DNA from: Candidatus Tectimicrobiota bacterium
GTDB lineage: Bacteria > JACPSX01
Reading direction: 5' to 3'
DNA length: 6,012 nucleotides
NCBI GenBank assembly: GCA_016193065.1
Contig: JACPSX010000134.1
Location: 1 to 6,012, forward strand
Part shown: piece after piece, positions 1,880 through 5,307 of the stretch
How the letters are laid out: the number at the start of each line of letters is the position of its first letter
Position numbering within the stretch: position 1 is the stretch's first letter
Translations under genes and position numbers: made by a program
Notes under the pieces: model-generated
The model's input: only the letters and a program-made list of their open reading frames with translations
Databases searched by the model: none
What the model was told of the DNA's origin: nothing

Positions 1880-3049
1880 GTGGAACTCTCCTGCCCTCAG
1901 TGCGCCACTCGTTACCGAGCGAGCGAGGAAAAAATCCCCCCCGGAGGGGGGAAAGTCCGCTGCCCCAAATGCGAGGCCATGATCGTCATCGATCCTCAAA
2001 CGGTTGCCCCCGGTGCCCAGGAGTCCCTCGCAGAACCGGAAGGAAAGCCCCCGGAAGAGATTCTCTCCGAAGAGACTGCGGACACGGAGAGCGTCAGTGC
2101 CGAGCCAGGAGAAAGCGCTCAGGAAGTCCAGCCGGAAGGCGATGCCGTTGCCGTCGCACCGGATGTGGCGGGAGCTCCTTCGGCTGGGGCAGGCGAGGAG
2201 ACGGATTTCCTGTCCTCTTCTCTCGCGGAGCAAGAAGAGCAACAGGACGAAGCCGGAACGATCCCTGCGCCTCCCGCCACCGCGCAGGAAGAACCACGGG
2301 AAGAAGAGGGAGAGCCCTCCGAACCTCCCCTGGCAGTGCAGGAAGAAGGACAGAAAGCAGATAGTGTGTCCCTCTCCCTGGCGGAGGAGCTCCCCCCGGA
2401 AGAGCCAGCCCTGCGGCAGGAGCCTGAAGAAGAAAAAACGGGGCATACCCGCGCCGGGATGAGGAGGTGGGCGAAACGCTTCAAGGATCGACTCCCGCGC
2501 GGCGGCCGGATTCCGAGACCTCTTGGATTGGGCCTGGCCGCCGCTTTCCTGGCCGCTGTGGCAGTCATCCTGTGGCAGTCCGCGCCGACTCGCGGTCCCC
2601 AGGCGCCGGCCCAGAGGATGACATCTTCTCCGTCCGGCCAGCCTCCTGCTTCTTCCGTCCCTCCCAGCAGTCCCCAGCAGCCTTTGCCCCCGGGGAAAGA
2701 ACCGGCCCTCACCCAGCCTCCGGAATCCCTTCCTGTGACTCCCGCGGGTCCTCTCTATCCGCTGGAGCCGTTTCTGGTCCCCTTGACGACCGGGGCCAAA
2801 GAGGATCGCTTCCTGAAAGTGACCATGGCCCTGGAGCTCTCCAGCGGACAGGTCTCCCTCGAGCTTGACGACAGGCTGACCACGGTTCGAGAACAGGTCC
2901 TGGCGGTCTTGAATTCCCGGACTCTGTCCTCGTTTCTGAACCTGGAAGGCAAGAACCAGCTTCGCAGCGACCTGATCCGGTCCATAAACCAGCAACTGTC
3001 CACGGGCGCGGTTCGCAATCTTTACTTCACCGAGTTTATCGTTCTCTAG
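1880..3049 (+). CDS. Zinc-ribbon, single-pass membrane protein with C-terminal FliL-like domain
   Basis: The 389-residue protein has four parts. Residues 1-38 form an MJ0042-type zinc ribbon with Cys5, Cys8, Cys28 and Cys31 in two CxxC knuckles. Residues 40-195 are acidic, rich in Glu and Pro, and probably disordered. A basic stretch (RRWAKRFKDRLPRGGR) precedes a membrane helix at about 214-232, which by the positive-inside rule leaves the zinc ribbon in the cytoplasm. After a Pro/Ser/Gln linker, residues 292-389 resemble the outer domain of FliL (YPLEPFLVPL, FLKVTMALEL, VREQVLAVLNSRT, and a closing YFTEFIVL). FliL stabilises flagellar stators, but no flagellar gene is visible here, so that role is not implied. 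The start is GTG at 1880; AGGA at 1868-1871, inside the end of mutS, is a well-spaced ribosome site. The domain reading is confident; the function is unknown. Confidence 0.85.
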   Translation: MELSCPQCATRYRASEEKIPPGGGKVRCPKCEAMIVIDPQTVAPGAQESLAEPEGKPPEEILSEETADTESVSAEPGESAQEVQPEGDAVAVAPDVAGAPSAGAGEETDFLSSSLAEQEEQQDEAGTIPAPPATAQEEPREEEGEPSEPPLAVQEEGQKADSVSLSLAEELPPEEPALRQEPEEEKTGHTRAGMRRWAKRFKDRLPRGGRIPRPLGLGLAAAFLAAVAVILWQSAPTRGPQAPAQRMTSSPSGQPPASSVPPSSPQQPLPPGKEPALTQPPESLPVTPAGPLYPLEPFLVPLTTGAKEDRFLKVTMALELSSGQVSLELDDRLTTVREQVLAVLNSRTLSSFLNLEGKNQLRSDLIRSINQQLSTGAVRNLYFTEFIVL

Positions 3050-3069
3050 GCCGGGGAGGGGAGTTAAAG

Positions 3070-3119: not shown

Positions 3120-3278
3120 ATGTCTTCCCGGTTCGTCGAAATCGTTATTTACCTGATCCTGGCGTTTGTGTTTCTCATCCTGGGGCTCAACTCCGACCAG
3201 GGCAGCATCCAACTGCTCCTCTTCCTGCTGACGGCCCTTTTCTTCTTCGCCATGTTCCGGCCCCGGCAGAGCTCGTAA
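3120..3278 (+). CDS. Small two-helix membrane protein, unknown function
   Basis: This is a 52-residue reading frame starting with ATG at 3120 and ending in TAA. A purine-rich ribosome site (GGAAAGGGG) sits about 5 bases upstream, and the extended -10 promoter lies just before that. The protein is almost entirely two hydrophobic segments, roughly residues 6-23 (VEIVIYLILAFVFLILGL) and 30-46 (IQLLLFLLTALFFFAMF). A short polar turn NSDQG joins them and a basic tail RPRQSS follows, so it should insert in the inner membrane as a helical hairpin. I recognise no family and see no catalytic residues. Promoter, ribosome site and clean topology together support a real gene. The long opposite-strand frame over the same bases looks like its shadow. 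Confidence 0.65.
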   Translation: MSSRFVEIVIYLILAFVFLILGLNSDQGSIQLLLFLLTALFFFAMFRPRQSS

Positions 3279-3786
3279 TCGCGTGCGGCGAGAAGGCTGA
3301 AGAGATGCGAGACCGGGGTGCCCCTTGGGGCTCCAGTAAACTTTTGCACGAGGGGGCGATTTAGGATCGGTTGCTTTTCGCGTGCGGAGAGGTCAGGTCT
3401 CCGGGGGTGCGGCGCCTGCAAAACTTTAAGTCGCCCTACGGGGCACACCCGGTCTCTTCTGGCAACCCCGTTAAGGTTGCCTGCGGGGGTTACCTTCTCG
3501 GAGGAGAAAGCACCGAGGGGACTGTCCTTCCGTCCGGAGCGAAACTGCCGGGAGCAGCGGGGGAACCCACCGGGAGCGGCCAGGGAAGGGAAACCGCGCA
3601 GCCAAGACGCGCTTGCAGATAGCTGAAGCATTTAACGGGGCGGTAGCGGAGGGTTCCCACCCTGGGCGCCCCGTAAGGGTCCGTTGCGGGAGGCGTGGAG
3701 CGTAGGGCGGAAGACAGTCACTTGCTACAAGTCCGTAATGGGTATTGACAGAACGGGTCCGATCGGGTAATAGGAAGAACCTTCGT
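3279..3786 (+). ncRNA. Candidate structured noncoding RNA region of unknown type
   Basis: About 500 bases carry no gene I can defend; several frames are open only because stops are rare in GC-rich DNA, and their translations resemble nothing. Inverted repeats are dense: 3317-3334 (CCCC/GGGG stem); TTTTGCA 3342-3348 with TGCAAAA 3417-3423; GGAGA/TCTCC 3386-3402; CCGGGGGTG 3401-3409 with CACACCCGG 3444-3452 (one mismatch); GGCAACC/GGTTGCC 3461-3481; CTCGG/CCGAG 3497-3517; an 8-pair stem ACGGGGCG/CGCCCCGT 3635-3674 enclosing AGGGT/ACCCT; and ACTTG/CAAGT 3720-3732. A 10-base direct repeat TCGCGTGCGG occurs at 3279 and 3378. Being downstream of a strong promoter and ending at a tRNA, it would be transcribed. 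I compared it by eye with RNase P RNA, tmRNA, SRP RNA and group I/II introns and found none of their diagnostic motifs. It may be a new RNA, a long leader, or merely GC-rich spacer. Boundaries are those of the gene-free gap. Confidence 0.35.
3745..3773 (+). promoter_or_regulatory. Possible tRNA/tilS promoter
   Basis: A consensus -35 hexamer TTGACA is at 3745-3750. Seventeen bases downstream the best -10 is TAATAG (3768-3773), which matches only three of six consensus positions. Initiation near 3780 would fall just upstream of the tRNA, the expected place for a tRNA promoter. The weak -10 keeps confidence low; the tRNA could instead be processed from a transcript begun at 3103. Confidence 0.3.
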
Positions 3787-3863
3787 GGCGGTGTAGCTCA
3801 GCTGGTTAGAGCATGCGGCTCATATCCGCAGTGTCCGGGGTTCAAGTCCCTGCACCGCCACCA
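3787..3863 (+). tRNA. tRNA with CAT anticodon, probably elongator tRNA-Met
   Basis: A complete 77-base cloverleaf with encoded CCA. The acceptor stem GGCGGTG (3787-3793) pairs perfectly with CACCGCC (3853-3859), followed by discriminator A3860 and CCA 3861-3863. The D arm is GCTC/GAGC around AGCTGGTTA. The anticodon stem is TGCGG/CCGCA with loop CTCATAT, placing CAT at 3821-3823. The T arm is CGGGG/CCCTG with loop TTCAAGT. CAT is used by initiator Met, elongator Met and Ile2 tRNAs. The paired first acceptor base excludes a typical initiator, and the GGCGGTGTAGCTCAG start resembles known elongator tRNA-Met genes, such as that of Bacillus subtilis, more than tRNA-Ile2. Because tilS, the enzyme acting on CAT tRNA-Ile2, begins 16 bases later, the Ile2 identity should be formally excluded. 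Confidence 0.95.
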
Positions 3864-3879
3864 ACTCATCCTTAGGATC

Positions 3880-5307
3880 ATGCCATTCTCCGCGTTTCTG
3901 GAGAAAGTGTTCCGGACCATCACCCGCCATGGGCTTGTCGTCCGCGGCGACCGGGTCCTCGTGGCCGTCTCCGGCGGACCGGACTCCATGGCTTTGCTGG
4001 AAAGCCTCTACCTGCTGCGAGAAAGGCTCTCCATAAGCCTCTCCGTAGCCCATCTCGACCACGCGCTGCGCGGATCTGAATCTGCGAGAGACGCCCGTTT
4101 CGTGCAGTCCGAGGCAGAGAAGCGCGGGCTGCCTTTCGTTGGTGGAAAAGAAGACGTCATTGCCTTCCGCAAAACCCGGCGCTGCTCCCTTGAGGAGGCG
4201 GCCCGAGAAGTCCGCTACCGCTTTCTTCGGGACTCGGCCGCCTCTCTGGGAGCGCAACGGATCGCACTGGGACACACGGCCAGCGACCAGGCCGAAACGG
4301 TTCTCCTAAATCTCTTGCGGGGAAGCGGCCGCCGGGGGCTGGCCGGCATGCCGGCTGTCCGCCAGGGCGTCTGGATCCGTCCTCTGCTGAACTGCCTGCG
4401 AGCCGAGGTGGAGGACTTTCTGAAGGAGCAGGGAATCCCTTTTGTCCTGGATCCGACAAACGCACTGCGGGTGTACCGGAGAAACCGGATCCGGCACGAC
4501 CTCCTGCCGAAGATGGAAGAAGAGTTTGGTCCGGGCGTGACCCGGGCTTTGGCCCGCAGCGCAGAACTTTTGGCGAGGGAAGAAGAATTTCTGGAAGCCC
4601 GGGCCCGAGAGGCCCTAAGAGATGTGGCGCAGGAAAATTTCACTCGGGGAATCGCGCTGCGCCTGGAAAAGCTCCAACACTATCCTCTGCCAATTCGCAG
4701 CCGGGTCCTGCGCCTGGCCGCCGGAGAGGCAGGGCTGCTCGGGGCGCTGACGTTCAGGCAGGTGGAAAGTCTCCTGAATCTCGCCGGAGGCACGGATCCC
4801 AGCGGGGAAGTGGCCCTGCCCCGAGGCCTCAGGGCGCAGCGGGAGTACGGCCTCCTGCACATCACTGTGCCTGTAAACACGCCGGAGAACGTCGAGCCCT
4901 CCGAGCTGCCAATGCCGGGAGTGCTGGAACTCCCCTGGTGCCGGACTCGCCTGATCGTCTCCCTGGTGGAGAGAGGAACAACGGACTTATCCCAATTGAC
5001 CGCCATGGAGGCTCTCTTTGACGCCGAGGCGCTGGTCTACCCCTTACGAGTGAGAAATCGGGCTCCCGGAGACCGATTTGAGCCTCTGGGGGGACCCGGA
5101 GGGAAAAAGCTGAAAGAGTATTTCATCGACGAAAAGATTCCCCGCCGGCGGCGTGATTTCATCCCGCTGGTCCTTAGCGGGGAGCGCATCCTCTGGGTGG
5201 TCGGGCGCCGCCTCTCTTCCTGGGCTCGGCCGACCGGGAGAACCCGGCACCTGCTAAGGATCCGCGCCGAGATCATGGACACGGCAGTCTCAGGAGACGG
5301 GAAATGA
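3880..5307 (+). CDS. tilS: tRNA(Ile)-lysidine synthase TilS
   Basis: TilS is a cytoplasmic ATP-dependent enzyme that joins lysine to C34 of tRNA-Ile2 (anticodon CAT), making lysidine; this switches both charging and reading from Met/AUG to Ile/AUA. The protein has 475 residues, normal for the family. The N-terminal PP-loop ATPase shows VAVSGGPDS (28-36), AHLDHALRG (57-65) and LGHTASDQAETVLLNLLRGSG (130-150). The conserved DPTN...YRRNRIRHDLLP lies at 191-210. The C-terminal substrate-binding domain shows VRNRAPGDRF, GKKLKEYFIDEKIP and the DFIPLV...ILWVVG ending at about 391-442. An in-frame extension upstream reads through the tRNA and is not coding, so I start at ATG 3880, with AGGA a few bases before it. 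The gene starts 16 bases after the tRNA CCA and overlaps hpt by ATGA at its end. Confidence 0.96.
   Translation: MPFSAFLEKVFRTITRHGLVVRGDRVLVAVSGGPDSMALLESLYLLRERLSISLSVAHLDHALRGSESARDARFVQSEAEKRGLPFVGGKEDVIAFRKTRRCSLEEAAREVRYRFLRDSAASLGAQRIALGHTASDQAETVLLNLLRGSGRRGLAGMPAVRQGVWIRPLLNCLRAEVEDFLKEQGIPFVLDPTNALRVYRRNRIRHDLLPKMEEEFGPGVTRALARSAELLAREEEFLEARAREALRDVAQENFTRGIALRLEKLQHYPLPIRSRVLRLAAGEAGLLGALTFRQVESLLNLAGGTDPSGEVALPRGLRAQREYGLLHITVPVNTPENVEPSELPMPGVLELPWCRTRLIVSLVERGTTDLSQLTAMEALFDAEALVYPLRVRNRAPGDRFEPLGGPGGKKLKEYFIDEKIPRRRRDFIPLVLSGERILWVVGRRLSSWARPTGRTRHLLRIRAEIMDTAVSGDGK

Follow-up and report, generated by a model that had tools for sequence, protein, structure and literature searches.

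The locus and its features

The window studied here is a stretch of 6,012 nucleotides on a contig (JACPSX010000134.1) of a Candidatus Tectimicrobiota bacterium. It contains, between a small ORF and a tRNA gene, an interval for which a preliminary description had claimed the absence of any credible gene, and the list of ORFs confirms this. The interval had been taken to reach the tRNA. We now restrict the feature to positions 3281 to ~3727-3731, since 3732-3786 is a separate region, the promoter region of the tRNA itself. The features of the locus, all on the + strand, are the following:

3120 to 3278 (+): membrane-type ORF of 52 amino acids, directly upstream of the element
3281 to 3731 (+): truncated mosaic MITE copy, with blastn/nhmmer matches to ~40 other places in the same genome
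3309 to 3456 (+): module A, a large hairpin (GAGACCGGG...CCCGGTCTC) inside which the arms TAAACTTTTGCA/TGCAAAACTTTA are nested
3475 to 3727 (+): module B, a multi-part stem with core 1 at 3572-3673
3728 to 3731 (+): CAAG, presumed outer end of the element, i.e., the last 4 bases of the right terminal repeat (4-base match)
3732 to 3744 (+): putative 13-bp spacer between the element end and the -35 box, following the rule from other copies
3745 to 3773 (+): promoter of the tRNA, read from the sequence, with TTGACA at 3745-3750, 17 bp, and TAATAG at 3768-3773 (a weak -10)
3787 to 3863 (+): tRNA-Met with anticodon CAT (ARAGORN; Rfam tRNA, 66.4 bits)

The ORF of 52 amino acids has no match in Pfam, and the homology with the other elements begins 2 bp past its stop codon. 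The excellent promoter that had been noted upstream of the interval belongs to this ORF. The promoter of the tRNA at 3745-3773 was not scored by our strict promoter scan. The tRNA with the CAT anticodon, called Met by ARAGORN, lies directly upstream of tilS (3880-5307). The product of tilS modifies the tRNA-Ile carrying a CAT anticodon.

The interval is as structured as previously described. We recovered the 8-bp GC stem (arms 3635-3642/3667-3674), the long-range pair TAAACTTTTGCA/TGCAAAACTTTA (3337-3348/3417-3428), the direct repeat TCGCGTGCGG (3279 and 3378), and 15 pairs of inverted repeats where at least eight had been claimed. Folded as RNA, 3281-3731 surpasses the stability of 100 out of 100 dinucleotide shuffles on both strands, with z-scores of -3.6 on the + strand and -4.3 on the - strand. 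The interval was also said to lack the signature motifs of the known large ncRNAs. A search of Rfam up to E = 5 revealed nothing besides the tRNA and a tRNA-like match overlapping it, and had no match within the interval.

A dispersed family of repeats

Searches with blastn and nhmmer identified ~40 related places in the same genome, with 69-91% identity. This genome is a draft of 2.9 Mb in 294 contigs and is 86% complete. Overall, the family comprises at least ~55 distinct elements. Many contigs end within copies of the element. The repeats have thus broken the assembly, and the true number of copies is likely higher than ~55. No match to the family was found in 40 other genomes, and the genome collection searched contains no second genome of the phylum. 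A 20-mer of module A has no exact match in 85k GTDB genomes, a set that may not include the genome under study, a 21-mer of module B has no match in viral contigs, and the copy in the window has no blastn match among plasmids. The best Hpt matches of this genome have ~45-59% identity and come from many different phyla.

Terminal repeats, target duplications and transposases

Complete copies have near-perfect terminal inverted repeats of 18 bp: CTTGCCCACCCCCAGTTT at the start, and the reverse complement of this sequence at the end. Allowing up to 3 mismatches, the terminal repeat has 61 matches genome-wide, against 6 for the reversed control. Ten copies have both ends; they are 102-464 bp long and carry no gene. 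Six of these 10 are flanked by 10-bp target duplications, identical at 10/10, 10/10, 9/10, 9/10, 9/10, and 8/10 positions, whereas 90 mismatched pairs of left and right flanks used as control were never identical at more than 6/10. The family has therefore the hallmarks of MITEs: terminal inverted repeats, target-site duplications, short length, lack of genes, and high copy number.

The copy in the window is more degraded. The segment it shares with other copies is 3281-3727; its left terminal repeat and left arm are gone, with a loss of ~110-140 bp, and its right terminal repeat is degenerate and mostly lost. Taken by itself, this copy thus has absent or degenerate terminal repeats, and without recognisable ones its own insertion cannot be demonstrated. 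The end at CAAG was read from the sequence against other copies.

We found no transposase with the terminal ends of the family in the 86% complete draft. The searches for transposases included the profiles PF01609, PF01797, PF00872, PF06782, and PF13808. They revealed one IS1380-type transposase (PF13701/PF01609), one of UPF0236 type, and two of Y1 type; there was no match to IS256 or PF13808 in the draft. The IS1380-type and UPF0236 (ISLre2-like) genes lie side by side (L165:367-1779 and 1981-3069, contig C242) and are the sole matches of their families in the genome. The terminal repeat of the MITE flanks neither of them within the 3-kb locus read. Y1 transposases move REP/RAYT elements, which are short GTAG-tagged palindromes, and 10-bp duplications speak against this mechanism. 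We discarded the idea that the elements interrupt genes, since our crude ORF calls on rejoined empty sites revealed no convincing broken gene.

Insertion at a fixed distance from promoters

We read outward from 60 ends of elements, defined by the terminal repeat with at most 3 mismatches, a search that is blind to promoters. A -35 box was called when at least 5/6 positions matched TTGACA, and a -10-like box when at least 4/6 matched TATAAT. In 18 of the 60 ends, the -35 box begins exactly 13 bp outside the element, and 22 ends have it at an offset of 12-14; the mean number of boxes at any other offset is 0.23. A -10-like box follows at normal spacing in 59% of the cases, against 17% in shuffles. 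At several other ends, a weaker box is found at offset 13 (TTGATC, TTGATT, TTGCCG).

Among the 10 complete elements, 8 have the -35 box on one side only, one lacks the box, and one is untestable because the contig starts 10 bp away. The ends with a -35 box are split 12 and 10 between the two strand orientations, and those that could be typed are 5 of B type and 4 of C type. Most are followed by an ORF on the same strand, whose products, from translations read by eye, include ribosomal protein S20, RibF, GlnE, CysK, and an ECF sigma factor. A one-sided box at a fixed distance of 13 bp thus points to insertion at ~-49 relative to sigma70 promoters, which serve ordinary housekeeping genes.

The spacer of complete copies consists of the 10-bp target duplication and 3 additional bp, and the sequences of the spacer and of the -10 vary between copies. 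Since the duplication lies between the element and the box, the promoter must be older than the insertion. Unlike what is expected for elements of the Correia type, the promoter is not within the element end: TTGACA is found 13 bp away from it, on the far side of the target duplication. In the window, CAAG (3728-3731) is exactly 13 bp from the TTGACA at 3745, as in the other copies. This distance is consistent with the spacing rule, without being independent proof of it.

Conservation of pairing in a modular interior

The copies are mosaics of three modules: C (a hairpin arm), A, and B. Module C is inverted in some of them. Module A is a hairpin of ~148 bp inserted in the tip of module C. Module B is a stem with two alternative cores; core 2 (GAGGCCCGCGCCGGATGAAAGCCGG...GCGCGGGCC) is unrelated to core 1 and takes its exact place in the stem (copies in L066:1364-1432, L070, L073, L075, and L081).

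Substitutions are much rarer in paired than in unpaired columns, keeping in mind that the paired columns were partly chosen for conservation: 0.007 vs 0.134 substitutions per site in module A, 0.048 vs 0.151 in module B, and 0.026 vs 0.130 in module C. Covariation had been suggested as a check of the structure, and we found it among the copies of this genome: module B has 18 cells with compensatory changes vs 5.6, above both shuffles and slid controls. Departures from pairing in this module comprise 15 G-T and 9 A-C, which are not clearly unequal and therefore indicate no clear strand preference. Stems are far more conserved than loops, to a degree that would not be expected of a MITE that simply decays. 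The conservation of pairing may result from selection on folded DNA, from template-switch correction of palindromes, or from RNA.

Alternative explanations

The preliminary description had proposed a new structured RNA or a processed spacer. The structure stands, in that the helices are conserved, covary and lack a match in Rfam, but they belong to a DNA element that has transposed, as evidenced by terminal repeats, 10-bp duplications, ~55 copies in both orientations, inverted modules, and an independent promoter for the tRNA. Neither a new large ncRNA nor a processed spacer is necessary to account for the interval. A structured RNA with a function, either trans-acting or as a leader, might still be carried at many loci. 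The strong fold, the slow change of paired columns in all three modules, and the compensatory changes above shuffles would fit it. We nevertheless regard it as unlikely, given the terminal repeats and target duplications, the inversion of module C, the lack of strand preference (15 G-T vs 9 A-C in module B), and the fact that the tRNA has its own promoter. Furthermore, B and C ends are about equally associated with -35 boxes (5 and 4 of those typed), which shows that the element has no fixed orientation relative to the promoter. There is also little to recommend an evolved regulatory effect, where elements at exactly -49 would be kept because a hairpin or cruciform in phase with the promoter improves expression. 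The spacing, which amounts to roughly a helical turn and three bases, and the conserved stems agree with it, whereas the unrelated housekeeping genes downstream and the occurrence of both orientations and of elements from ~100 to more than 450 bp do not.

Alternatively, the spacing might reflect survival: elements would insert randomly in intergenic regions and selection would keep those sparing promoters. The elements do sit between genes, and insertions in genes or core promoters would be lost. However, this process predicts broad distances upstream of the -35 box. The distances instead form one peak at 13 (12-14) and hardly any fall elsewhere, which makes it improbable. It is most improbable that the promoter belongs to the transposed unit, i.e., that the element carries an outward promoter, even if this is known for Correia and other MITEs according to a review (PMC10969869). 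The 10-bp duplications are directly adjacent to the terminal repeats and separate the element from TTGACA. Moreover, copies differ in their spacer and -10 sequences, and the promoter is present on one side only, beside either end. We therefore discarded the element as a promoter carrier, because the duplications lie between it and the promoter.

A MITE probably aimed at promoters

The interval is, very probably, a decayed copy of an abundant MITE whose transposition is aimed at sigma70 promoters, a reading that builds on directly observed repeats, terminal repeats, duplications, fixed spacing, mosaicism, and pairing. The element would be a non-autonomous transposon of ~100-465 bp in complete copies, moved by a transposase with a 10-bp stagger. 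This transposase may dock at the -35 region itself or at RNA polymerase bound to the promoter. The duplication stops 3 bp short of the -35 hexamer, which places the end of the element, in either orientation, 13 bp from TTGACA (~-49). Insertion at this position would leave intact the core promoter of whichever gene follows, in this case the tRNA-Met, and replace the sequence upstream of the promoter. We infer that insertions survive owing to these intact promoters. Within the element, nested hairpin modules are swapped, inverted, and invaded by smaller palindromes, and base pairing is kept. More tentatively, it is possible that a target selector reads the -35 box or the bound RNA polymerase/sigma70, integrates at ~-49 either way, and carries a hairpin cargo selected for its fold.

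By analogy, such a promoter-reading bacterial transposition system might be the counterpart of promoter-targeted retrotransposons. Ty3/Ty1 of yeast and TRE of Dictyostelium are aimed at RNA polymerase III and integrate at a fixed distance from the machinery of transcription start, which leaves the gene unharmed. This constant distance is what they share with the family described here; they are eukaryotic retrotransposons, and the likeness is one of analogy, not of homology.

Among bacterial elements, BOX elements and REP-BIME mosaics are built from short units. Our family is likewise modular, palindromic, and intergenic, and differs from them by its terminal repeats, its 10-bp duplications, and the swapping of modules within one transposon. 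It resembles MITEs such as MITEAba12, QMITE, and BrickBuilt, which are short and gene-less, with terminal inverted repeats, target duplications, and many intergenic copies. Unlike these, it is fixed 13 bp from -35 boxes and has swappable hairpin modules inside. The Correia elements of Neisseria are also MITEs found near promoters and upstream of genes, but they carry their own outward promoter (PMC10969869), whereas here the promoter is that of the host and lies outside the target duplication. The relevant passages of the same review report that promoters can lie within MITEs and that MITEs occur upstream of genes, and describe no targeting of promoters at a fixed distance (PMC10969869).

A limited literature search revealed no description of a bacterial transposon picking generic promoters at base-exact spacing. 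The novelty of this mode of targeting is thus provisional. Bacterial transposons are known to insert at random, at a single attachment site, in repeats, or at terminators. If true, a transposase finding -35 boxes or sigma-bound polymerase would represent a new targeting mode. It would explain how the element spreads safely in a gene-dense genome, and it could be used to map active promoters. The swappable hairpin interior bears on the origin of palindromic repeats.

Small palindromes

Two smaller palindromes were observed in the hairpins. A micro-palindrome of 19 bp (CACCCGC, a short spacer of N, and GCGGGTACC) is found 86 times in the genome, and the reversed control is never found. It occurs in several hairpin loops of the MITEs and also elsewhere (for example at L037:1980-1998 and 2255-2275, and L029:3901-3915), and looks like an independent, tiny mobile palindrome. 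In several copies (L022:2295-2320, L037, and L049), the palindrome CCTGCCTGTGCGGACACGCAGACAGG is inserted into module A, always at the same point (ACTT/TAAG).
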